Source: a virus. Taken from it: a stretch of DNA of 64,000 bases. The DNA lies in the IMG/VR virus record IMGVR_UViG_3300008954_000005, positions 1 to 64,000 of that record. One strand, written 5' to 3'. Positions within the stretch are counted from its first letter, which is position 1. Each line of letters begins with the position of its first letter. Below the pieces are notes generated by a model, which worked only from the letters and a program-made list of their open reading frames with translations, was not told the DNA's origin and did not search any database. Shown one piece after another: positions 25,224 through 44,616 of this stretch. The translations under genes were made by a program, and so were the position numbers.

Positions 25224-27203
25224 ATGATCTTTGAACAGGTGTCCGATGCCAGAAAAGTGAGAAACTTTACGCTGCCTTCAGCGTTTCTAGAACAATACAT
25301 GGGGAAGCAGCCGAAGTGGGGACCACTTGGGTATTTCACCTTTAAACGAACTTACGCCCGACCGCTAAAAGATGGAACGACAGAGGAATTCTGGCAGACC
25401 TGTAAACGCGTTGTGGAGGGTGTCTATAACATTCAAAAGCTCCACTGCAGTAACCTGCGCCTCCCTTGGGATCACGCGAAAGCCCGAAGGTCTTCACAAG
25501 AGATGTTTGAGCGGATGTGGACCTTCAAGTGGCTCCCACCCGGTAGAGGCTTGTGGACCATGGGAACAGACATGGTCTACGAAAAAGGCAGTGCCGCTCT
25601 AAATAACTGCGCCTTCGTCAGCACGGAAGAGATCGACGTAGACTTTGCTGCTCCCTTTGTGTTCCTGATGGATATGAGCATGTTGGGTGTCGGAGTTGGT
25701 GGAGACACCAAAGGTGCCGACCGTATTCAGGTTGTTGTCCCTAAGTACCACGACGAGCCTTACATTGTTGAGGATAGTCGTGAGGGGTGGGTAGAGCTTA
25801 CGCGGGTAGTCTTAAACGCTTTCGTCAGTAAGGGCCAATACCCCACCAACATCGACTATTCCCAAATTCGCCCCAAAGGTGCGCCTATCCTCGGATTTGG
25901 TGGCACCGCATCTGGGCCGAAGCCTCTGGTTGATTTGATTGATAACCTGTCCGAACTGCTTATGCCGAAGGACGGGGAACCATACAAAATCACTAGCGCC
26001 ATTATCGTAGACATCTTCAACTACATCGGTAAGTGCGTTGTTGCGGGCGGTATCCGAAGAACTGCGGAGATCATGTTCGGTGACGCGGATGATCGTGAGT
26101 TCATCACTCTGAAGCAAGACGTGGAAGCTCTACAAGACAGGCGGTGGGCCTCAAACAACAGTGTCTTCGGAACAGTCGGAATGGACTACACCAGTGTGGT
26201 GGACTCCATCGCAGAGAACGGAGAGCCTGGGTTGATTTGGCTAGATAACATGCAGCATTACCGCCGAATGGATGGTAAGCGAAATGGTTACGACGTTCGG
26301 GCTATGGGCAGTAACCCCTGCAGCGAGCAGACCTTAGAAAGCTTTGAGTTGTGTTGCTTAGTAGAAACATTCCCAGCGAACCACGATAGTTTCGATGACT
26401 ACCAACGTACGCTGAAGTTTGCCTACCTCTATGCCAAGACCGTCACTCTTGTTCCCACGCATGACCCGCGAACGAATGCGGTGATGATGAGAAACCGCCG
26501 TATAGGTTGTTCAATGAGCGGCATCGTACAAGCTCTTAACAAGCACGGTCGTCGCGAGTTTCTCAAGTGGTGTGACAACGGCTACCAGTACATAAGACAA
26601 CTTGATCGCCTGTATTCTGAGTGGTTGTGTATCCCACGGTCAATCAAGGTTACAAGCGTCAAGCCTAGTGGAACGGTTAGTCTCCTTTGTGGTGCTACGG
26701 CAGGTATTCATTACCCCCACAGTGAGTACTACATCAGGAACATTCGTGTCTCCGATATCTCTCCGCTTGTGAAAGCTGCGAAAGATGCTGGGTATCCGGT
26801 CGAACCAGACGCATACGCAGACAGTACTGTTTGCATAAGCTTCCCTGTACACGAGCCGCACTATGCTAAAGGAAAGAGTGAAGTCTCGATCTGGGAGCAG
26901 TTCGCTAATGCTGCGGACCTACAAAAGTACTGGGCCGACAACCAAGTGTCTGTGACGGTTACGTTCACTAAAGAGGAGATTCAGGACATCAAGTCTTGTC
27001 TTGAGGTGTACGAAACCCGTTTGAAGTCCGTGTCTATGCTCCCACTTATGGATAAAGACCACGGCTACAAACAGGCCCCGTACATTGCGATCACAAAAGA
27101 GCAGTACGACAACATGTCGACTAAAACCAAGCCTCTGAATCTGGCTCAGTCAGTGCATGAGGTTACGGAGAAGTTTTGTGATGGGGACTCCTGTACTATC
27201 TAA
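25224..27203 (+). CDS. nrdJ: Adenosylcobalamin-dependent ribonucleoside-triphosphate reductase (class II, monomeric)
   Basis: 659 residues, ATG preceded by GAGGAGGG. It converts ribonucleoside triphosphates to deoxy forms using B12. Seen motifs: NNCAFVST near 129, NPCSEQ at 364-369 with the following ESFELCC, VKPSGTVSLL near 480, and the C-terminal redox pair C652 and C657 in CDGDSC. The overall pattern fits the monomeric RTPR type, not the dimeric NrdJ. It lets the phage make dNTPs without oxygen or a partner subunit, but the host must supply B12. I looked for a cobalamin riboswitch in the 170-base leader and saw none. Confidence 0.93.
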   Translation: MIFEQVSDARKVRNFTLPSAFLEQYMGKQPKWGPLGYFTFKRTYARPLKDGTTEEFWQTCKRVVEGVYNIQKLHCSNLRLPWDHAKARRSSQEMFERMWTFKWLPPGRGLWTMGTDMVYEKGSAALNNCAFVSTEEIDVDFAAPFVFLMDMSMLGVGVGGDTKGADRIQVVVPKYHDEPYIVEDSREGWVELTRVVLNAFVSKGQYPTNIDYSQIRPKGAPILGFGGTASGPKPLVDLIDNLSELLMPKDGEPYKITSAIIVDIFNYIGKCVVAGGIRRTAEIMFGDADDREFITLKQDVEALQDRRWASNNSVFGTVGMDYTSVVDSIAENGEPGLIWLDNMQHYRRMDGKRNGYDVRAMGSNPCSEQTLESFELCCLVETFPANHDSFDDYQRTLKFAYLYAKTVTLVPTHDPRTNAVMMRNRRIGCSMSGIVQALNKHGRREFLKWCDNGYQYIRQLDRLYSEWLCIPRSIKVTSVKPSGTVSLLCGATAGIHYPHSEYYIRNIRVSDISPLVKAAKDAGYPVEPDAYADSTVCISFPVHEPHYAKGKSEVSIWEQFANAADLQKYWADNQVSVTVTFTKEEIQDIKSCLEVYETRLKSVSMLPLMDKDHGYKQAPYIAITKEQYDNMSTKTKPLNLAQSVHEVTEKFCDGDSCTI

Positions 27204-34556: not shown

Positions 34557-34579
34557 AAGACATTTTAGTGGAGACATGG

Positions 34580-34930
34580 ATGAAGGAAAAAGGAGACACG
34601 GTAGACTTACTGCCGTTTGCTCAGCAAGTTAATGCTTCTCTCCAGAAGCAGAGCAAAGTAAAAAGTACGCTATATGAAAACTGGTTGGTGGACATCTACT
34701 TTGGGCCTAGCCCTACAGCAGATGAAGAACTACCAAGACTAGGTTTTATCGCTTGTGCATCGACACAAGACAAAGAGGCTGGTCCTCTCCCCAACTTGAG
34801 TAACTCAAGTGGGGTGCGAGTAGACTTCGACGAGAAGTCGGTTGTGTGGTGGTCCGGTGACTCACTGGACGATTTAGAATCTAAAATCACAAACGCATTC
34901 CCAGAAATTACCTGGAATAGGGAGGACTAA
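34580..34930 (+). CDS. Hypothetical protein preceding the ubiquitin-like gene
   Basis: 116 residues; the ATG at 34580 has GTGGAG six bases upstream, better than the GTG at 34568. Alpha/beta with a VVWWSGDSLDDLESK helix near the end. The stop overlaps the start of the ubiquitin-like gene (TAATG), so the two are cotranscribed and probably linked in function. No family recognised; it could be a partner or target adaptor. Confidence 0.6.
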   Translation: MKEKGDTVDLLPFAQQVNASLQKQSKVKSTLYENWLVDIYFGPSPTADEELPRLGFIACASTQDKEAGPLPNLSNSSGVRVDFDEKSVVWWSGDSLDDLESKITNAFPEITWNRED

Positions 34931-35361
34931 TGTCCACAGAGAATCTTCAAGAACAGCTTGATTCAGCAATCAAGACCAGAGATGAACATGTTCAAAATAT
35001 GGGAGATGAATTCAGCCAAGCCAATATGGATCGGCTGTCTGCACTCCAGAAGGCCGTTGCATCCGCAAAGACTGCCTTGGAAACCGCCGCTGCTGCAGCG
35101 GCTGCTCCTGCGGTAGAGGGAAATACCGACCTTTGTGTCGTATCTCTAATCCGAAGCGGAAAAAGCGACCGGGTCGTCGAGGTTCCTACGGATACCTCGG
35201 TGAGCGACCTTATGAATACTCTTGGTTGGCCAACCAACGACTTCACGTTTAAGCGTCGAGTCGGCCCAGGCCAAACCGTAGAGATTACCAATCTTGCAGC
35301 CACCCTCGGTACAGGTGATCACGAAATCTTCGTATCACCTCGTGTTGCAGGAGGCTTCTAG
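34930..35361 (+). CDS. Ubiquitin-like beta-grasp protein (PRTRC-C/MoaD-like) with Gly-Gly-Phe end
   Basis: 143 residues. Residues 1-50 are helical and 51-62 are Ala-rich, a likely linker. Residues 66-143 follow the beta-grasp order: strands LCVVSLIRSG and RVVEVPT, a short helix SVSDLMNTLG, strands FTFKRRV and EITNL, and a last strand IFVSPRV before AGGF. G141 and G142 are followed by one Phe, so the JAB protease encoded next door would expose the Gly-Gly. It would be activated by the E1-like enzyme and passed to the E2-like protein. A terminator follows it, so it may be made in excess. Confidence 0.75.
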   Translation: MSTENLQEQLDSAIKTRDEHVQNMGDEFSQANMDRLSALQKAVASAKTALETAAAAAAAPAVEGNTDLCVVSLIRSGKSDRVVEVPTDTSVSDLMNTLGWPTNDFTFKRRVGPGQTVEITNLAATLGTGDHEIFVSPRVAGGF

Positions 35362-35390
35362 ACTCTAGTCTAACTAGAGATTCCCTCCTT

Positions 35391-35428
35391 GGGGGTGGGG
35401 CTACTTCGGTAGCTTCACCCCCTTTTTA
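35391..35428 (+). terminator. Terminator between the ubiquitin-like and E2-like genes
   Basis: GGGGGTG and CTAC pair with GTAG and CACCCCC around TTCG, followed by TTTTTATTT. Read-through would supply the enzyme genes. Confidence 0.8.
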
Positions 35429-35444
35429 TTTACGGAGAATACCC

Positions 35445-36539
35445 ATGGCTTCAACAAGCAACACACAATGGGAATGGAGAGTTGACGACGACAGCGACAA
35501 TCTCGAATTCCTTCTATCTAAAATTATTGATGACTCCGTAGCCTCCTCCAAAGTCAACACAGTTGAACTGGAAACAGAGCTAGCAAAGCTCACAGCAAAA
35601 CGCACTGCTTGGGAGAGTAAGCTAACGCGGAGAAAGTCTATAGAGCAGTCTGTGCGAGAACGCCTAGAAAAACGACAAGTCGAACTCAGAAAAGCTCAAG
35701 ACGCCTTCCATAAAGCTAGGCAAAAAACTAGAGCAGTAGGCTACAAAGTTTCTCAGGCAGTTGAAGACTCAAGGGCTCTTAGTAATACCCTCGGACAGGA
35801 AAAGCTCTTTCTAGACAACTTCGCTGGTATCTACACAGAGGACGCCTTTAAGAACAGGGCCTTTATGGTGATGTCCCTGCGCGAGCGCATTGACTCATCT
35901 ATTCCCATCTCGTTCTCTCATGATAGAGACCAAAAGAAGATGCGGCTCTCGTGGGTCACTGGAGACATCTACATAAATAACTCCTTAGAGGGCGGTGTCT
36001 GGCCATTTAACTTTGGGCAGTACCGCGTAGAGGTCACCTTCAGCTATATGAACGGACATAGAGACGCCAGAGTGCTTATCCGTGGCCACCGAAGAAATAC
36101 CATTGTTTCAGGTGAGTACTTTCACCCGCATATCCGGAGCGATGGTACGGCCTGTCTAGGCAATGTCGCCAGGATGCTAATTGAGCACATGGCTAACCAA
36201 GACGTGGCCCAAGTCATTTGCACAGTTACGGAATATCTGTGTCACTACAACGAACAAGATCCGTACAGAAAACTGATGTTCTGGGGTGTAGCTAATCCTT
36301 ACGACCTCCCACACATCAACATGTACCAGTCTCACTTAGTGTTTGACTCAGGGCCAAAGAACCCCTGTGGCCTCTCACAATCTGACTGCATGGTTCAGCA
36401 TTTGACAGATAAAGCTGGGGAGTGCTCGTCGAGGAGCCTGCCCGCAGAGGTAGTTGTGACAGCAACATCCGTATATGAAAATCTTCAATCTTTTAGGGAG
36501 CGACTTAATGGCGAAGGTAACGAAGAAACCAACGGTTAG
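35445..36539 (+). CDS. E2 ubiquitin-conjugating-like protein with N-terminal coiled coil
   Basis: 364 residues, ATG preceded by ACGGAG. Residues 35-110 are a long charged coiled coil. Residues 140-300 contain a UBC-like core: strands with WPFNFGQYRVEVTFSY, then YFHPHI at 225-230 and DGTACLGN at 233-240. HPH...C matches the HPN...C of E2 enzymes, making C237 the probable thioester residue. It would accept the ubiquitin-like protein from the E1-like enzyme. It overlaps the JAB gene by 32 bases. Confidence 0.8.
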   Translation: MASTSNTQWEWRVDDDSDNLEFLLSKIIDDSVASSKVNTVELETELAKLTAKRTAWESKLTRRKSIEQSVRERLEKRQVELRKAQDAFHKARQKTRAVGYKVSQAVEDSRALSNTLGQEKLFLDNFAGIYTEDAFKNRAFMVMSLRERIDSSIPISFSHDRDQKKMRLSWVTGDIYINNSLEGGVWPFNFGQYRVEVTFSYMNGHRDARVLIRGHRRNTIVSGEYFHPHIRSDGTACLGNVARMLIEHMANQDVAQVICTVTEYLCHYNEQDPYRKLMFWGVANPYDLPHINMYQSHLVFDSGPKNPCGLSQSDCMVQHLTDKAGECSSRSLPAEVVVTATSVYENLQSFRERLNGEGNEETNG

Positions 36540-37506
36540 GTTCAGTCAAAAAGCCTACCAACAAATGTTTGCGTTAACGAACGCGTGTAAAATCGAAATC
36601 AGTGCTATGGGTATTGTTGCTACTGCCGAACAAAAAGAAGACGCGGGTGTAACTGAAGACTTCTATGTAACTGAGTTCTTTGTCATTGATCAGGAGTGCA
36701 CAGGCACGTCAACTGATCTAGATGATGATGCAATGGTGGACCTTCTTATGAACCTGCGTGATCAGGGAATTAAGTCGGAGCAAATGTGTGTTTGGTGGCA
36801 TAGCCACGTAAACATGGCCACTGCTCACTCAGGAACAGATGAAGCCCAAATCGAAAGATTTGATTTCGACACAGTCTGCATCTCTATTATCACTAATAAG
36901 AAGGGTGAGCTAAATCTGCGCGTGGACATGTTCCAGCCGTTTAGACACACCTTCGAGAAGTGTGATTACGTTCTAGACTTCGTAGATATCCTCCCAGATA
37001 ACTGGGCTGAGGAGATGGTCGCCACTCATGTAAATGAGAAAAAGATCATCCCGCAGAGGCTCAACGTTGTGAAATCACGATCACGCGGAGTTGTCACCGG
37101 ATACGGTGGGAACTGGGGTGGTTGGAGTCGTTGGGAAGATGACGATGACGAGCGTAACGTGCTTGGGGCATCCACCACTAGTGGTCGTGAAATCGTTAAG
37201 TCCTCCGACCTACTGAAAGAAGGCGATGACGATGACCTCCCGGCATTTGACGCCCTCGATCTCCCAAAAGAATTGGGTCATCTACAAGACGCGTGGGATC
37301 TAAATCTGCTCGACACTCAGGACGTAATGGAACTCTTTGCGAGATGGTATGCAAAAGAGTTGAGTACAGAAGAAGTTGTCCAAGAGCTAGAGGAAACCCA
37401 CAACATCCTTGTAAGCGATTTAAAAGCTGGAGACGATGAGGATCCGGCTGATGCTGTCGTGGATACTGAAGTAGATGACCTGTTAACTTTTGGAGGTACT
37501 GCATGA
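36508..37506 (+). CDS. JAMM/JAB isopeptidase-like protein
   Basis: 332 residues from the ATG at 36508, which has GGGAG seven bases upstream. The metal centre is complete: E30, H98-S-H100, and S108-x-x-D111 (HSHVNMATAHSGTD), exactly the JAMM spacing. Such enzymes cut ubiquitin-like proteins from targets or trim their C-termini. The C-terminal half, residues 190-332, is acidic and ends LLTFGGTA, itself resembling a Gly-Gly tail. It overlaps E2 and E1 genes on both sides. Confidence 0.88.
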   Translation: MAKVTKKPTVRFSQKAYQQMFALTNACKIEISAMGIVATAEQKEDAGVTEDFYVTEFFVIDQECTGTSTDLDDDAMVDLLMNLRDQGIKSEQMCVWWHSHVNMATAHSGTDEAQIERFDFDTVCISIITNKKGELNLRVDMFQPFRHTFEKCDYVLDFVDILPDNWAEEMVATHVNEKKIIPQRLNVVKSRSRGVVTGYGGNWGGWSRWEDDDDERNVLGASTTSGREIVKSSDLLKEGDDDDLPAFDALDLPKELGHLQDAWDLNLLDTQDVMELFARWYAKELSTEEVVQELEETHNILVSDLKAGDDEDPADAVVDTEVDDLLTFGGTA

Positions 37507-38165
37507 TTGACACCACGAGGCAGTCTGGAATTATTCCAGACGACCGCCTCTCGGACGTGTCGGTAGCGATCATCGGTGTGGGGGCCATTGGCTCTCACAC
37601 CGTTGAGTCGCTCTCAAAAATGGGAATCCGACATTTTCATATATTTGATGATGACGTTGTAGAAGAACACAACCTAGCCAACCAAGGCTATTTCCTACCC
37701 GAAATCGGGTATAAGAAAGTTGAAGCCTTAGCTAATCGTATTTCGGTTGGAACTGGGGCGGAGGTTGTTGCTGACGCATGTCGAGTAGAAGACAACCACG
37801 ACTTTACGGAACGGTACGTAATCTCTGCTGTAGACAATATGGCCTCTCGAAAAAGCATTTTCGAATCATTCCTCAACAGCACCACATCCCGTTTCTTTTT
37901 GGATGGTCGTATGGCGGCTCGGTTCGGGCAAGTCTACTTCGTAGACAAACTCAAACCAGAAACCATCGAAAAGTATGAAAACAGCCTATTCAGTGATGAG
38001 GAAGCTGTTCCCCTGCCGTGCACGGAGAAGGCCACAATCTTCTGCGCGTATGGGATTGCGTCTTTTATGTCCGCTCTTATCGCAAAGAGCATTATCGAAG
38101 AGCCCATTAAGTTTATGTCTGCGGAACTAGATTTCGCAAACATACTCCTGATGCAAGCTCTTTAA
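37503..38165 (+). CDS. ThiF/E1-like adenylating enzyme
   Basis: 220 residues, ATG overlapping the previous stop. The nucleotide motif GVGAIG lies at 25-30, the Asp cluster FDDD at 48-51, NLANQG at 57-62, and SAVDNMASR with D111 and R116 fits ThiF enzymes. C173 in LPCTEKAT is the best candidate for the catalytic Cys. At 220 residues it is a minimal E1 without the separate ubiquitin-fold domain. It would adenylate the Gly-Gly end of the ubiquitin-like protein. Confidence 0.85.
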   Translation: MIDTTRQSGIIPDDRLSDVSVAIIGVGAIGSHTVESLSKMGIRHFHIFDDDVVEEHNLANQGYFLPEIGYKKVEALANRISVGTGAEVVADACRVEDNHDFTERYVISAVDNMASRKSIFESFLNSTTSRFFLDGRMAARFGQVYFVDKLKPETIEKYENSLFSDEEAVPLPCTEKATIFCAYGIASFMSALIAKSIIEEPIKFMSAELDFANILLMQAL

Positions 38166-38215: not shown

Positions 38216-38959
38216 ATGGCGAATGACAAGCAGAAAAGTTGGACCACCGGTCTTCCTATGGAGGGCCTCATCAGCCCGTCTCGGGCACCCGATGTGATCA
38301 GCGTGGAATTCAACGGTACTACCACCAAGCTTCTGAAGCAGGTGGTAGCGAAGGATGAGGAGGGCACCGCCGTCTCCATCCGATACGTTGGAACACCTGT
38401 TGGTCCTGACGGGCGGTCCTGCCGCTTCGCAATGTCCATTGAAACAAATGGATTCGTGCGAGGCTCTGCGGCGATGAACTTCATCGCTGCGGGTGGTTGG
38501 GGTCGTGGTACGACTAAGCCCGATGAGGCTACCAAGCGTGAGAGCCGGAACAACTTCGTTCGTGGACTCATCACTAGCGCAATCGTCCATCAGGGTATGG
38601 ACAACAGCGCGGAGATGAAGTCCGTGATCGAACGGGAAACCGGCCTCACGGTTACTGACGGTGAGATGTCCCCAGAGGACAAGAACCTGTACGCTCTGTT
38701 GGGCGTTCGGGCGTACATCGTCACCTTGGCGGAAAGCCGGAACCTCAAGTTCTCGGTGGACCTCAAGAGCTTCATGGGCAAGGTGGTTCAGCCTACCTAT
38801 GCCGCCATCGTTGAGGGGGAGTGGGATGAGGAAAGTGACGAAGTCGCTCTCACCTCTGCTCTGAGCGAGGCTCACGTTCAACTGCTCACTGGTGCAGGCC
38901 TGAAGTTCCGCAAGGTTCGGAGGGCTCGTGGGGTGCAAAGGAAGACTCAGACCTCGTAG
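38216..38959 (+). CDS. Hypothetical protein, probably highly expressed
   Basis: 247 residues, start after CCCTTAAGGAGGG, the same strong leader used at 4515 and 5164. Codon use is GC-rich. Globular alpha/beta, ending in a basic tail. No family recognised. It is the last gene before a terminator in the ubiquitin-like cluster, so it might be an abundant substrate or partner. That link is only positional. Confidence 0.6.
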   Translation: MANDKQKSWTTGLPMEGLISPSRAPDVISVEFNGTTTKLLKQVVAKDEEGTAVSIRYVGTPVGPDGRSCRFAMSIETNGFVRGSAAMNFIAAGGWGRGTTKPDEATKRESRNNFVRGLITSAIVHQGMDNSAEMKSVIERETGLTVTDGEMSPEDKNLYALLGVRAYIVTLAESRNLKFSVDLKSFMGKVVQPTYAAIVEGEWDEESDEVALTSALSEAHVQLLTGAGLKFRKVRRARGVQRKTQTS

Positions 38960-39004
38960 TCTGATCTCCCAATTGTACGCTTAGCCGTGCGGGCCTTATA
39001 GAGA

Positions 39005-39035
39005 GAGGGGGGTTTATCCCCCCCTCTTTCTTTTT
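39005..39035 (+). terminator. Rho-independent terminator
   Basis: A GAGGGGGG / CCCCCCCTC stem is followed by TTTCTTTTT. Confidence 0.8.
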
Positions 39036-39074
39036 ACCCCAAACCCTATTAAGGTGTAATACCGATTGATAGAA

Positions 39075-40429: not shown

Positions 40430-40513
40430 TTTTATTCCTAATGGAGAACCTACTACCGATGAATATTTATGCAGCGGTATTGAGAACAAAACCAACAAAT
40501 GGAGGTTATTACC

Positions 40514-41413
40514 ATGCAGCTTGAGCAGCAGGTATTCCCAATTGACAGCATCGAGCGAAATGTGCTCGGTTTCCGAAACAGTCGATCCGATGTTGGAGAT
40601 ACGCGAGAACTTCGCGCCTCCATCATTTCCGATGGGCTGCTAAACCCCCCAATCGTTCACGTTACTACAGATGAAGATGGTAATGAGAGAGTCCTTCTCA
40701 TTGCGGGCTATCGACGACTCCAGGCTATTCTGGATGAGCGGCAGGCTCGAAGTGAGGGGGAGGATGAAGAGGCTTTCTTCGAAGACATCGCATGCGGTGT
40801 CCACGTTGGATCTCTTGAGTCCGCTCTCGCCCTGAACATTGCAGAGAACCTGCAGCGTGAAACGCTAAACTTCGCAGATAAGTGTGAAGCCGTATTCCGA
40901 CTTAATGAGCGCATCGGTAATCAGCAAGAAGTTGCTGATATGCTGAACATCTCTCAGCCCCAGGTGAGCGTTCTTTGCTCCACCTACAAGGGACTGAGTA
41001 CTGTTGCGTTCGATTGTCTTCGGCACGGTCGAATCACCATGGGACAGGCTAAGAAGCTTGCCAAGGTGGTGAAGGCTGACGGTACTCCAGACGCTGGTCA
41101 GCAGGATGAAATCCTTGAACAGCTTCTGGGACAGGGTAAGGATGAGGTTCCTGACACTAAGCAGCGTCAGCGAGCTAAGACCTACCGCTCGAAGAAGGAA
41201 GTCGAAGAGCTTCGTACCGCTCTTGCAAACGACGAAACCGGACTGGATCAGGAGCACAAGGACGCGGCGACCCGCTTCGTTCAGTGGTACTTCTGCGAAA
41301 TCGATACTGATGAACTCATTCATCGTATTGATGCGGTCGAAGAGGTTACGGTCGAAGATAAGCCCACCAAGAAGACGATTAAGCGTAAGCGTCGTATTCG
41401 GGTAGGTGACTAA
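40514..41413 (+). CDS. ParB-like DNA-binding protein
   Basis: 299 residues, ATG after TGGAGG. The N-terminal ParB/Srx domain has GLLNPPIV near 41, AGYRRLQA at 64-71 (the G-x-R-R CTP/DNA motif) and ENLQRETL at 111-118. A helix-turn-helix follows at about 136-158 (QEVADMLNISQPQVS). ParB proteins bind palindromic sites; the six dyads around 39.1-40.4 kb are the obvious candidates. No ParA is seen. PRTRC plasmid cassettes also join a ParB-like protein with ubiquitin-like, E2, JAB and ThiF proteins. It could control or segregate DNA. Confidence 0.85.
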   Translation: MQLEQQVFPIDSIERNVLGFRNSRSDVGDTRELRASIISDGLLNPPIVHVTTDEDGNERVLLIAGYRRLQAILDERQARSEGEDEEAFFEDIACGVHVGSLESALALNIAENLQRETLNFADKCEAVFRLNERIGNQQEVADMLNISQPQVSVLCSTYKGLSTVAFDCLRHGRITMGQAKKLAKVVKADGTPDAGQQDEILEQLLGQGKDEVPDTKQRQRAKTYRSKKEVEELRTALANDETGLDQEHKDAATRFVQWYFCEIDTDELIHRIDAVEEVTVEDKPTKKTIKRKRRIRVGD

Positions 41414-43006
41414 ATGAACCGGAGCGTCGAAGAACTCGACGTTCTCATTAGGGCTGCGCACCCGGTGATCTTTGTGGTTAGCCATGAAGAACATCGGGTT
41501 GCGCAAGCTCTTCATGAGATTGTTGAGCGCAAAAATAAAAGTTCAGAGGCTAACGCCTCTCTGTGGACATGGTCTATGACCGATGGAGCCTACTGCGGCG
41601 ACGAAAACTTCACAGATTTAGACGGTCCTCTTGAGATTCTTGAGCATATCGGAAAGTACGAAAAATCCGGTGTCTTTATGTTGAAGGACTTCGCGTATTT
41701 CCTGAATGAAGGCCCTGCCTATCTTGTTCAAAGAAAACTACGCGACCTCACGTCAGCTATGGGGCATGGAATTTCCATCGTAATTGTGGATAGTGAGTTA
41801 AACATCCCACCCCGTCTTGAGAAGCTTATGACCGTTGTGGACTTCGACCTCCCAACAGCACAAGAACTTGAGAGCTACACGGCGTGGGTAGTTAAGGACC
41901 ACCTAGGTAAGCAGAAGGACGTACCCCAAATTCATGAGGACGCCTGTAATGCTGCCGTAGGCCTTACTGCTACAGAAGTTGAAAACGTCTTCTGTAAGTC
42001 GCTCGCTAAAAATAGCACGCTTGATCCTAAAGTGATCATGGAAGAGAAGAAGCACATCATTCGTAAGTCTGGGGTGCTTCAGTACCATGACGTAGATAGG
42101 GATATGGCTGATGTAGGTGGACTCGCAACCCTTAAGGGATGGGTCAACCAACGAGGTCGGGCGTTCACCTCCAAGGCTAGAGAGTATGGTCTTCCACACC
42201 CAAGAGGAGCCCTCATTGTGGGAATTCCGGGTACTGGTAAATCCTTGATTGCAAAGTGTATCGGCGCATCATGGAAGATGCCGGTGCTGCGTATGGATGT
42301 GGGCGCTTTGTTCGGACAGTTTGTCGGGCAGTCAGAAGCAAATATGCGGAAGGCCCTGAAGACTGCGGAAGCTCTAGCTCCCTGTGTATTGTGGATTGAT
42401 GAACTCGAAAAGGGTTTTGGTAGTGCGGGTGGTGGGGGTGCTCACGATAGCGGAACCTCTGCCCGTGTGTTTGGTAGCTTCCTATCTTGGATGCAGGAGA
42501 AAACTTCTCCTGTATTCGTAGTTGCTACCGCAAATGACGTAAGCCAACTTCCACCAGAGATGCTTAGAAAAGGAAGATTTGACGAATTGTTTTTCGTAGA
42601 CCTTCCAAATGAAGCAGACAGGAAGGAAGTATTCCGTATCCACATTAGCAGGCTGGGGAGAGACCCAGACATGTTTGATCTCGGTGATCTTGTCAAACTC
42701 ACGAACGGTTTTACCGGCGCTGAGATTGAGCAAGTGATCGTTGACGGTTTATTCTTGGCCTTTGATGAGGACAGGGAACCAACCCTAAATGATTATTCAA
42801 TTGCTGCTGCTAGGACAGTCCCAATCTCCAAAACAATGGAGAAGAAGATTGAAGCTCTTCGTGGCTGGGCAAATGGTCGTGCTCTCATGGCCAATGAGTC
42901 TGACAAGCGAAAGAACGCTCCTACAAGCAGAGCGGCCAAGCGTGAAGGACGAGTCAAGCCAACAACAGGCTCTGACTGGTCCGGTCTGAAGAAGAAGGCA
43001 AATTGA
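41414..43006 (+). CDS. Ycf46-like AAA+ ATPase
   Basis: 530 residues, ATG one base after the ParB stop. Residues 1-230 are the degenerate N-terminal half of Ycf46-type proteins. The AAA+ core has Walker A GIPGTGKS at 270-277, Walker B VLWIDELEK near 327, TANDVSQLPPEMLRKGRFDE with the arginine finger near 390, and FTGAEIEQ as sensor 2. Such ATPases remodel proteins. Together with the DUF2997 and DUF1257 genes downstream it forms a trio known from cyanobacteria and plastids. The substrate may be proteins tagged by the ubiquitin-like system. Confidence 0.88.
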   Translation: MNRSVEELDVLIRAAHPVIFVVSHEEHRVAQALHEIVERKNKSSEANASLWTWSMTDGAYCGDENFTDLDGPLEILEHIGKYEKSGVFMLKDFAYFLNEGPAYLVQRKLRDLTSAMGHGISIVIVDSELNIPPRLEKLMTVVDFDLPTAQELESYTAWVVKDHLGKQKDVPQIHEDACNAAVGLTATEVENVFCKSLAKNSTLDPKVIMEEKKHIIRKSGVLQYHDVDRDMADVGGLATLKGWVNQRGRAFTSKAREYGLPHPRGALIVGIPGTGKSLIAKCIGASWKMPVLRMDVGALFGQFVGQSEANMRKALKTAEALAPCVLWIDELEKGFGSAGGGGAHDSGTSARVFGSFLSWMQEKTSPVFVVATANDVSQLPPEMLRKGRFDELFFVDLPNEADRKEVFRIHISRLGRDPDMFDLGDLVKLTNGFTGAEIEQVIVDGLFLAFDEDREPTLNDYSIAAARTVPISKTMEKKIEALRGWANGRALMANESDKRKNAPTSRAAKREGRVKPTTGSDWSGLKKKAN

Positions 43007-43875
43007 GTCGCGGGCGGCATCATACTGGAATAATCCAGCTAGACGAATTTCTTCAGGGAGGTCTTCCTTCGGGTATCTGCGAAGTTATCGGGGAAGACGC
43101 GAGTGGGAAATCTACGTTGGGGTTTAGTGTGATGAGGGAGGCCTCTTTAAGGGGCCTCCCAACCGCCTTGATTCATACGGAAGGGTATCCCGATAAAGGG
43201 TATATCCGTAGGTCCGGTCCAACCGAATGCTTAGTTAGTGTACCTACTAACGCCGAAGCAGCTATCGAATCTGCCCACGTTTCCCTCCTTAGTGGGTGTG
43301 TGATCGTAGTGATCGATTCTCTTTCGGCTGCTGAGTCTGTATGCGATCAGGCTCAAGTTGTCGGTGACCGTGTCCCTTTCGCTGCTAGGAAGATGGCTTA
43401 CCATGGCCTTAGTATCCTCCGAGAAGAAGCCTTAAAAAGAAACGCATTGGTGCTGGTCGTGAATCAGCTAAGAACGCCTATCCAATCCCTAGTGCCCACA
43501 CCCTGTTCCTCATTTGAGGGGACTATAAACAGGTTGTGTGCCGTGCGGATAAGGACCGTTAGAGAAACCACCAGAAATGAGTATGGGGAGCTTGCCTACC
43601 TAAAGGTGCGGTTCAACATCTATCGCTCATTGGTTTCTCCCCCAAGTGACAGAGCCTACGGATTTCTCTTTAATCAAAAAGGGTTTTGTCGGGGCTTCGA
43701 ACTTATGCGTGCTCTATTATCGGCTAATATACTAGACCAAAAAGGCGCATACCTTATCGGTCAAGATGGCAAATCGCTAGGCCCTGGGTATCTAGGTGCC
43801 GCAGAGCAAATCAATAAAAATTTTGAACACTATCGGAGGATCTACGATGATCGAAGTCAAAGTAGTAGTCCATGA
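43003..43875 (+). CDS. RecA-like ATPase
   Basis: 290 residues from a TTG that overlaps the previous stop (TTGA). It has Walker A GEDASGKST near residue 30, VIVVIDSLSAA near 105 as Walker B and LVLVVNQLRTP near 148 corresponding to the RecA L2-proximal strand. The start QLDEFLQGGLPSGICEVIG is typical of RecA/UvsX-type recombinases. The sequence diverges from host RecA, so it is a phage recombinase. The coupling with the AAA+ gene is notable. Confidence 0.82.
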   Translation: MSRGRHHTGIIQLDEFLQGGLPSGICEVIGEDASGKSTLGFSVMREASLRGLPTALIHTEGYPDKGYIRRSGPTECLVSVPTNAEAAIESAHVSLLSGCVIVVIDSLSAAESVCDQAQVVGDRVPFAARKMAYHGLSILREEALKRNALVLVVNQLRTPIQSLVPTPCSSFEGTINRLCAVRIRTVRETTRNEYGELAYLKVRFNIYRSLVSPPSDRAYGFLFNQKGFCRGFELMRALLSANILDQKGAYLIGQDGKSLGPGYLGAAEQINKNFEHYRRIYDDRSQSSSP

Positions 43876-44032
43876 AGACGGAACCGTTGAGACCGAGGTT
43901 AATGGCGTAAAGGGAAAGGGTTGTACCCAGTACACAAACGCTGTAATCAAGGCCTTGGGCGGTGAAGTAGTCAAGGATGAAAAGAAACAAGAGTATTATG
44001 AGTCCGAGTCTACCTCTGTGAAGAGTAGATGA
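43847..44032 (+). CDS. DUF2997 protein
   Basis: 61 residues, ATG after CGGAGG, overlapping the RecA-like gene by 29 bases. IEVKVVVHEDGTVETEVNG then VKGKGCTQYTNAV and ALGG match the DUF2997 family, small proteins that typically neighbour Ycf35/Ycf46-type genes. Function unknown. Its stop overlaps the next start (ATGA). Confidence 0.75.
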   Translation: MIEVKVVVHEDGTVETEVNGVKGKGCTQYTNAVIKALGGEVVKDEKKQEYYESESTSVKSR

Positions 44033-44616
44033 GGATCCATAGAGTTACCTACGGAAGTCGTGTAAACGGCCCCGGTGTAAGAACAGTTCTACATACACAG
44101 GGATGCACAATAGGCTGCGCCGGTTGTTTCAATGCACACACCTGGGATGCCGACAAAGGCGACGAACTCACGGTAGATACCGTTATTGAACTGCTTCTGT
44201 CCGACATTAAGGACGGAGTGACTATTTCTGGTGGAGAGCCCACCGAGCAATGGGAAGAGCTACACGTAGTTCTTCAAAGACTTAAAGACGTAGGCCACAG
44301 TGTGGTCCTATTTACAGGACTAACCAAAGCCCAACTAGAAGAACGTGAGATCTGGAAAGATCTTCAGAGCCTAACCGATATCCTTATCGTTGGGCCATAT
44401 GACAGAACAAAACATATACAAAGTGAACCTTTAAGAAGCTCCTCTAATCAGGAAGTCTTCTTCTTCTCAGAATACACATCTGATGATCTAGAATCCGTAC
44501 CGGAAATCGAAGTACACGTTGACGGGGATACCGTCACCATTGCTGGGTTTCCTACTAAACCAATAAGAACAACTCTCTTACGAGAGTTAAAGGAGGGCGC
44601 ATGTCGCACCTTGTAA
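44029..44616 (+). CDS. Radical-SAM protein, NrdG-like small type
   Basis: 195 residues. C26, C30 and C33 (CTIGCAGC) form the CxxxCxxC cluster motif for a 4Fe-4S centre; GVTISGGEPTEQ near 65 is the SAM-binding GGE. It has the length of activating enzymes such as NrdG, but no anaerobic (class III) reductase is in the window, so its partner may be another protein in this operon. The C-terminal 50 residues are beta-rich and unusual. Confidence 0.8.
   Translation: MRIHRVTYGSRVNGPGVRTVLHTQGCTIGCAGCFNAHTWDADKGDELTVDTVIELLLSDIKDGVTISGGEPTEQWEELHVVLQRLKDVGHSVVLFTGLTKAQLEEREIWKDLQSLTDILIVGPYDRTKHIQSEPLRSSSNQEVFFFSEYTSDDLESVPEIEVHVDGDTVTIAGFPTKPIRTTLLRELKEGACRTL

Follow-up and report, generated by a model that had tools for sequence, protein, structure and literature searches.

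Why would a large bacterial virus carry a complete set of ubiquitin-like conjugation genes? Bacterial operons of this kind have mostly been interpreted as host defence systems or plasmid cassettes. The genes considered here lie in a window of 64,000 nt, the whole stretch of DNA analysed, which comes from a 155,722-base IMG/VR phage contig. Four adjacent genes, all of them real, encode a ubiquitin-like protein (Ubl) of the beta-grasp type, an E2, a JAMM/JAB peptidase, and a minimal E1. We put the probability at roughly 0.7 that they constitute a phage-encoded pathway for Ubl conjugation and removal that acts during replication, the catalytic steps and the targets being putative. Here, we describe the cassette, its relatives, and the alternative explanations.

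The gene order Ubl-E2-JAB-E1 is kept in IMG/VR contigs L002, L003, L004, L006, and L007–L009, i.e., in five distinct phages, with L007–L009, which are alike at the cassette locus, counted as one. In a sixth relative (L005), the contig begins inside the JAB gene and the cassette is incomplete. Together with the invariance of key residues in these relatives, the conserved order confirms the four-gene set proposed in the preliminary description. Indeed, the set exceeds four genes, since a conserved 120-aa gene precedes the Ubl gene, sharing one base of its stop codon with the Ubl start codon (TAATG), and a conserved 247-aa gene follows the E1 gene; family-model searches with the 247-aa protein gave no match. 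The features are listed in Table 1.

Table 1. Features of the cassette and its surroundings (window coordinates).
Feature	Position	Strand	Basis
120-aa protein, no assigned fold	34568..34930	+	same place in L002, L003, L004, L006, L007–L009; 25–41% identity
Ubiquitin-like modifier, 143 aa	34930..35361	+	AlphaFold2 beta-grasp, Foldseek, GG conserved
Predicted intrinsic terminator at Ubl-E2 junction (14-bp stem, TTCG loop, T run)	35390..35431	+	sequence prediction
E2-like conjugating enzyme, 364 aa	35445..36539	+	motifs, profile alignment, predicted topology
UBC-like core of E2 (residues 130–275)	35832..36269	+	AlphaFold2 topology, alignment A6
C-terminal Cys/His cluster of E2 (C308, C315, H319, C327)	36366..36425	+	relatives' alignment
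JAMM/JAB metallopeptidase, 332 aa	36508..37506	+	E30, H98xH100, S108xxD111; Prok-JAB; RPN11
Minimal E1/ThiF-type activating enzyme, 220 aa	37503..38165	+	Pfam ThiF, UBA5 match, conservation
247-aa protein, basic C-terminus, final cassette gene	38216..38959	+	all IMG/VR relatives, 40–57% identity
Terminator-like hairpin and T run 3' of cassette	39001..39038	+	sequence prediction; less conserved
Conserved neighbours, probably outside pathway: ParB-like (40499–41413), AAA+ ATPase (41414–43006), RecA-like (43003–43875)	40499..43875	+	

The Ubl consists of two N-terminal helices, a beta-grasp domain (residues 68–137), and a tail ending in AGG-F. The AlphaFold2 model has a b-b-a-b-b-b arrangement (strands 68–75 and 78–86, helix 91–98, strands 105–112, 115–118, and 130–137; pLDDT about 86–91), and its Foldseek matches include SUMO, ubiquitin, and the Caldiarchaeum ubiquitin. 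The C-terminus reads VSPRVAGGF. The Gly-Gly pair is invariant (6/6) and is followed by 1–21 further residues across the relatives. Given the confident model and the conserved glycines, the initial picture of a beta-grasp protein with a helical N-terminus ending in Gly-Gly-Phe holds. Among viral structures in the library searched, the top match is a 289-aa protein of Flavobacterium phage Fpv3, equal in length to the Fpv1 Ubl that was earlier identified by gene position. Profile comparison (hhalign) revealed no link between the window Ubl and the crAss-like, PhiXhv-16, or PRTRC Ubls.

The E1 matches Pfam ThiF at 9.8e-22 (77.7 bits; cut-off 28.1) and, as its best PDB match, UBA5 at 2.3e-11. Residues G25xGxxG30, D49, D51, K72, D111, and C173 are invariant (7/7), in agreement with the proposed ThiF-type enzyme with a GxGxxG motif and a candidate C173. 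C181 is likewise invariant within the window-type family, but C173 is the better catalytic candidate because it alone has counterparts in other lineages. For the JAB peptidase, every residue of the predicted E...HxHx7SxxD zinc site (E30, H98-S-H100, S108, and D111) is invariant (6/6). The best PDB profile match is RPN11, and the window protein aligns to the crAss-like JAB at 2.3e-6 (hhalign). Pfam Prok-JAB is matched by four of the six JAB members at sub-threshold scores (best 0.012; window protein 0.019). The JAB gene probably starts at the ATG at 36508 rather than at 36475, from which the reading frame is open; the numbering of E30 in the preliminary description already agrees with this start.

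In the E2-like protein, H227-P228-H229, G234, and C237-L-G-N are invariant (6/6), and the window profile aligns in register to the E2s of crAss-like phages and PhiXhv-16 on HPH/HSH...CLG; the flap deviates from HPN, being HPH in the window and HSH in crAss-like phages. The suggested UBC-like protein with HPH...C237 and a coiled coil (residues 17–129) is thus supported in its motif, while its UBC fold is putative: the core in the AlphaFold2 model of the E2 (mean pLDDT 68) contains a helix, a beta-meander, the HPH flap, the catalytic Cys loop, and further helices, and the Pfam UQ_con score (0.027) is below the cut-off. Foldseek matches of the whole protein are dominated by the coiled coil, and a UBC-core profile matched no PDB chain at E-values up to 10. 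Searches by tblastn with the window E2 against INPHARED and with a single E2 against IMG/VR returned nothing, which we attribute to fast divergence of the E2. Since the Pfam scores of both E2 and JAB fall under their cut-offs, we base the two identities on sequence motifs, alignment register, the topology of the fold, and genomic context. Near the E2 C-terminus, C308, C315, and H319 are invariant among the relatives, whose E2s have extra cysteines (CxC, CxxC) upstream of the Cys/His cluster that the window protein has lost. A RING-type E3 was considered for this region and rejected, because C308, C315, H319, and C327 are kept without the upstream cysteines, unlike a cross-brace.

The cassette was originally judged unusual for a phage; however, it recurs in other lineages. 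CrAss-like phages carry an equivalent set in the order Ubl-E2-JAB-E1 (e.g., crAss001 gp79–gp76), as does Flavobacterium phage Fpv1, in which a Rfam search of an insertion in the JAB gene found no intron. Xanthomonas/Erwinia phages have the set without a detected JAB. In Xanthomonas phage PhiXhv-16 (Ubl-E2-E1), profile A5 found no JAB, although the same profile fails to detect the JAB known from crAss001. The crAss-like Ubl differs from that of the window in having an SG motif and then a long C-terminal extension, rather than GG and a short tail. Alignment-based searches added no phages to those of the first E1 scan, and the 84,980 species genomes searched yielded no bacterial relative. Existing annotations in crAss001 and its relatives, Fpv1, and PhiXhv-16 read ThiF, metalloprotease, or hypothetical. 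We found no earlier report of the phage cassette in the literature searched.

The arrangement of the genes bears on their expression. With the JAB start at 36508, the E2 and JAB genes overlap by 32 bases and the JAB and E1 genes by 4 bases, as anticipated for enzymes made together; by contrast, a predicted 14-bp-stem terminator at 35390–35423 between Ubl and E2 means that the Ubl is not simply co-transcribed with them. All six window-type phages have a predicted terminator here, as do six of seven crAss-like loci, with differing stem sequences. Overall, a scan using a trimmable stem and equal thresholds for all loci placed one at 12 of 15 junctions, against 0.097 per kb overall. In L002 and L007, the T run is itself base-paired within the stem, and a stricter scan overlooked both terminators. 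The conserved terminator suggests that the Ubl is probably expressed separately from, and in excess of, E1, E2, and JAB, assuming that the terminator is leaky.

The cassette was placed between virion and replication genes. The replication side of this placement stands, as ParB, AAA+, and RecA-like genes lie directly downstream; the virion side is loose, with the identified head and tail genes on the opposite strand at about 49–63 kb. Cassettes lie near DNA-replication genes in every phage lineage found. Neighbours include a primase, a uracil-DNA glycosylase, and nucleases in crAss-like phages, and a DNA ligase and a topoisomerase in PhiXhv-16. The middle genes of crAss001 are largely devoted to replication, recombination, and nucleotide metabolism (PMC8375218). 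Location across lineages therefore favours a role in DNA replication over one in virion assembly. Lambdoid TAPI/TAPK likewise pair a phage-encoded beta-grasp (Ub-like) domain with a JAB, at a tail-assembly location and with no E1 or E2 (PMC1779556). The window cassette differs in having the full set near replication genes, and we rejected a tail-assembly role for it.

Conserved catalytic residues, the confident beta-grasp model, the E2-like topology, and conserved order in several lineages together support the complete conjugation and removal cassette first proposed. In such a pathway, the JAB peptidase would trim the residue or residues beyond the Ubl Gly-Gly. The minimal E1 would adenylate the exposed glycine and accept the Ubl on C173, from which it would move to C237 of the E2 and then to target-protein lysines. 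In the apparent absence of a separate E3, targets would perhaps be selected by the coiled coil of the E2 and the Cys/His cluster near its C-terminus. JAB would also remove the Ubl from targets, and the Ubl-E2 terminator would let the modifier be produced apart from, and probably above, the catalysts. The likeliest targets would be phage or host proteins at sites of phage replication and recombination, because the cassettes have replication and repair genes as neighbours in separate lineages, although neighbourhood is a weak guide to targets.

The same machinery could instead serve counter-defence, by tagging host defence proteins or by saturating the E1/E2 of Bil or of CBASS Cap2 with a decoy Ubl. 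Bil (PMC11354881) and CBASS (PMC10097602) are anti-phage Ubl systems, and a phage would benefit from blocking either. We consider this unlikely, since a decoy requires just a Ubl or a JAB rather than a retained E1-E2-JAB set, and the set occurs in lineages with very different hosts, beside replication genes and in no obviously variable accessory region. The cassette itself belongs to neither system. It resembles Bil in having Ubl, E2, JAB, and E1 as four genes and a Ubl precursor with a tail past the Gly. However, it has a single Ubl domain, an HPH...C E2, and a 220-aa E1, whereas in Bil two Ubl domains are present in BilA, a CEHH motif in BilB, and two adenylation domains together with a Cys domain in BilD (PMC11354881). 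With type II CBASS (Cap2/Cap3) it shares a JAB removal enzyme and an E1 domain that matches PADLOC E1-E2 at up to 6e-16. Cap2, however, joins E2 and E1 in one protein that acts on a CD-NTase, whereas the window cassette has unfused E2 and E1 and a dedicated Ubl; the PADLOC match covers the E1 part only, and the cassette genes scanned include no CD-NTase.

We give little credence to the idea that Ubl tags direct proteins to the adjacent CDC48-like AAA+ ATPase, in analogy to ubiquitin-dependent unfolding. The AAA+ gene follows the cassette in all window-type relatives and matches CDC48/proteasomal ATPase models, yet phages of Rhizobium, Agrobacterium, and Rhodobacter carry members of the same family without an annotated adjoining cassette, no such gene is annotated beside crAss-like cassettes, and no peptidase partner was found. 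A sulfur carrier role deserves still less: the E1 would thiocarboxylate the Ubl for sulfuration of tRNA, a cofactor, or DNA bases, with JAB maturing the Ubl and the E2-like protein as a scaffold. The E1 is indeed minimal and ThiF/MoeB-like, and bacterial sets of Ubl, JAB, and E1 function in sulfur assimilation (Iyer et al. 2006; PMC1779556). Against this, every intact cassette has an E2-like protein with an invariant HPH...C, and the cassette genes scanned include no rhodanese or sulfurtransferase.

Another relative in layout is the PRTRC plasmid cassette, operon type 6d of Iyer et al. (C = Ubl, B = E2, A = JAB, ThiF = E1; PMC1779556). Both have the four activities in the relative order C-B-A-ThiF, with a minimal stand-alone E1 and near-contiguous enzyme genes, and some Burkholderiaceae PRTRC cassettes have a terminator directly after the Ubl. 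The PRTRC resemblance noted at the outset is thus real in gene order, but membership does not follow. The window ThiF and ParB score far under the PRTRC cut-offs (PRTRC_ThiF, 1.5e-16, 60.5 bits against 144.75 for TIGR03736; PRTRC_parB, 1.9e-8, 33.3 bits against 278.6 for TIGR03734), and NCBIfam models of PRTRC A, B, C, E, and F matched none of E2, JAB, Ubl, and the flanking genes. The JAB lacks the N-terminal region of PRTRC A, and the Ubl has a helical N-terminal part and ends in GG-x. PRTRC B has no HPN histidine but a conserved downstream His (PMC1779556); the window E2 has HPH before the Cys, and its downstream H248 is not conserved in L006 and L007. In the E1 tree, phage and plasmid PRTRC enzymes are separated (support 97/91). 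Acquisition of a PRTRC cassette for plasmid-like genome maintenance with ParB, for which no gene is annotated beside the crAss-like cassettes, therefore merits scarcely any belief, and recent transfer into the phage is largely refuted.

Returning to conjugation during replication, we suggest tentatively, at somewhat less than even odds, that the cassettes represent a distinct and old phage-specific Ubl pathway, common to unrelated lineages including crAss-like gut phages, which modifies replication-site proteins with a modifier held in excess through a conserved terminator. The terminator after the Ubl, present also in some PRTRC plasmids, suggests a common expression rule in which modifier exceeds enzyme. 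If this reading is correct, bacterial viruses modify proteins reversibly with a system of their own while they infect, and because crAss001 can be cultured in Bacteroides intestinalis, the pathway is directly testable.

The parent contig of the window, an IMG/VR virus, is 155,722 bases long, and the window covers its bases 1-64000. It carries genes for a tail sheath, major head protein and head maturation protease, as well as for RecA-like proteins and a class II ribonucleotide reductase. Judged by this gene content, its source is a tailed phage, probably with a contractile tail. Six close-set genes precede ParB, AAA+ and RecA-like genes and include the ubiquitin-like (Ubl), E2-like, JAB and E1 genes. 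As the preliminary description held, the E2, JAB and E1 genes overlap, by 32 bases (E2/JAB) and 4 bases (JAB/E1), and the stop of the 120-aa gene shares one base with the Ubl start. The AAA+ ATPase of the window has relatives (phrog_8638) in Rhizobium, Rhodobacter and Agrobacterium phages and in mycobacteriophages. The window phage encodes a radical-SAM protein alongside its ribonucleotide reductase.

Features of the phage cassettes and related loci (window genes in map order)
Source	Feature	Coordinates	Strand	Length (aa)	Remarks
Window	Flanking gene		+	120	
Window	Ubl		+	143	
Window	Terminator, Ubl-E2 gap	35390-35423			14-bp stem, T run (consensus scan)
Window	E2-like		+	364	
Window	JAB	start ATG 36508	+	332	
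Window	E1		+	220	
Window	Flanking gene		+	247	
Window	AAA+ ATPase	41414-43006			CDC48-like
Window	Radical-SAM protein	44029-44616			4Fe-4S
Window	Ribonucleotide reductase	25224-27203			B12-type (class II)
crAss001	gp79, Ubl-like				...KIKSGA
crAss001	gp78, E2-like				HSH...C-T-G
crAss001	gp77, JAB				HSHNNMATFFSGTD
crAss001	gp76, E1				
PhiXhv-16	Ubl				ends SGG
PhiXhv-16	E2-like	L021:5238-7916		893	coiled coil, HPH...CLG, Cys-rich tail; Cys-rich stretches at both ends
PhiXhv-16	E1				
Fpv1	JAB, interrupted	L020:5668-7960			insertion of about 1 kb just upstream of HSH motif
Window-type phage (L047)	Short JAB-like ORF	G001:142900-144000	-	about 110	
Window-type phage (L048)	Short JAB-like ORF	G004:170500-171700	-	about 110	
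Burkholderiaceae PRTRC plasmids	Strong terminators, near-identical, 3' of protein C gene	L015:4429-4446; L049:2377-2398; L053:2390-2407			
Bacillus amyloliquefaciens plasmid	Two adjacent ThiF-like genes	L044:1962-5971			one with degenerate nucleotide loop

A scan with the window E1 matched eight further IMG/VR contigs. Seven carry all cassette genes in unchanged order (three of them, L007-L009, gave alignments identical to one another), and the eighth, L005, starts inside the JAB gene. Compared with the window, E1 identity drops as low as 58% and E2 identity to 28-33%, but the catalytic residues do not vary: Ubl GG; E2 H227-P-H229...C237-L-G-N; JAB E30, H98, H100, S108 and D111; and E1 G25, G27, G30, D49, D51, K72, D111 and C173. 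Family searches with Pfam agreed in part, with ThiF matching E1 at 9.8e-22, whereas Prok-JAB (JAB, 0.019) and UQ_con (E2, 0.027) fell below the Pfam cut-offs. Against PDB sequences, UBA5 ranked first for the E1 profile (2.3e-11) and RPN11 for the JAB profile (0.013). Two window-type phages have an extra short JAB-like ORF reading WWHSHVNM...TDQDE or IDQDE, with Ser replaced by Thr or Ile; it may be a paralogue that is inactive or has a regulatory role.

From the Ubl alignment, AlphaFold2 predicted a pair of helices at the N-terminus, then a domain of b-b-a-b-b-b topology (pLDDT about 86-91), in line with the proposed beta-grasp fold. PDB structure matches include SUMO1/2, ubiquitin, UBX and Caldiarchaeum ubiquitin. 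In a viral structure library the best match came from Flavobacterium phage Fpv3, a protein 289 aa long; the Fpv1 Ubl, earlier assigned by its place in the cassette, has the same length, and since Fpv1 and Fpv3 are sister phages of one host group, this suggests that the two are the same protein. The E2 model (mean pLDDT 68, C-terminus unmodelled) has the anticipated coiled coil (17-129), then a helix, beta-meander, HPH...C237 loop and two helices, the topology expected of UBC. The coiled coil dominates its Foldseek matches, so the UBC fold is only probable.

The cassette is also found in other phages. INPHARED tblastn with E1 matched crAss-like phages (cr85_1, 3e-22; crAss001, 7e-16), phages of Flavobacterium psychrophilum, Xanthomonas/Erwinia phages with lengths near 228 kb and a small number of further phages. 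Neighbouring genes complete the cassette in crAss001 (gp79-gp76) and likewise in cr85_1, cr128_1, Dulem virus 41, bajarodcaudo virus, DAC17 and cr106_1 (the last three assigned from gene layout and inclusion in profiles), and Fpv1 carries the same set. Within the Fpv1 JAB insertion, the annotation places an ORF on the other strand; the insertion matches no Rfam intron family. In PhiXhv-16 the neighbouring genes give Ubl, E2 and E1. No JAB was found there with the window-type profile, which also misses the crAss001 JAB, so that PhiXhv-16 may still encode one. Profile alignments, each E-value from one comparison, link window and crAss-like E1 (1e-29), JAB (2.3e-6) and E2 (0.004), and window and PhiXhv-16 E2 (0.0012); both E2 alignments are in register on HPH/HSH...CLG.

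The likeness to plasmid PRTRC cassettes holds for activities and relative gene order, but model cut-offs and architecture fail, ruling out membership. Two other systems do not match either: Bil has a pair of Ubl domains, a CEHH E2 and an E1 of two domains (PMC11354881), and CBASS has a fused E2-E1 protein and a CD-NTase. The E1 tree places window, crAss-like, Fpv1 and PhiXhv-16 proteins opposite PRTRC ThiF and two other plasmid E1s (97/91); its branches are long and finer placement is unsafe. Iyer et al. 2006 (PMC1779556) described a phage Ub-like TAPI with JAB, with no phage E1 or E2 found in the parts consulted. Neither ubiquitin nor ThiF came up in term searches of the genome paper on crAss001, the survey of crAss-like phages from 2021, the paper on crassvirus structure and the review of Crassvirales. 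We found no report of phage cassettes in full-text literature; subscription literature was covered incompletely, and earlier notice is possible.

Predicted terminators, with differing stems, occupy the Ubl-E2 junction in all six window-type phages. When a single fixed rule was applied to all loci, a terminator lay there in 12 of the 15 phage cassettes (6/6 window-type, 6/7 crAss-like), and in each of the six crAss-like loci it is the only plus-strand terminator in 12.6-16.7 kb. The non-window loci have 0.097 terminators per kb overall. The chance of one falling in this gap is about 0.007-0.03 per locus, although the phages are related and the test was post hoc. The same scans found none in Dulem virus 41, because its Ubl and E2 genes overlap. 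Fpv1 has a weaker-GC hairpin and T run that fails the rule, and in PhiXhv-16 the hairpin is GC-rich and its T run poor. Lowering the minimum stem from 8 to 7 showed a terminator directly 3' of the protein C gene in three PRTRC cassettes out of eight, those of pMOL28, Robbsia and Cupriavidus taiwanensis. The simplest reading is that Ubl, as a modifier needed in stoichiometric amounts, would be transcribed separately and at a higher level than its enzymes.

By established Ub/Ubl chemistry, JAB would expose the Ubl Gly-Gly, which E1 would adenylate before loading Ubl on C173; Ubl would then pass to E2 C237 and on to target proteins, from which JAB would also remove it. Counter-defence is the main rival account of the cassette's purpose. 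In the window the cassette lies beside ParB/AAA/RecA genes. Its neighbours in crAss-like phages are primase, uracil-DNA glycosylase and nuclease genes, and in crAss001 it falls in the genome region for replication and repair. In PhiXhv-16 it lies beside genes for DNA ligase and topoisomerase. Middle genes of crAss001, as a class, are expressed from 10-30 min and are largely for replication, recombination and nucleotide metabolism (PMC8375218). Together, these neighbourhoods and this gene class favour a role in replication.
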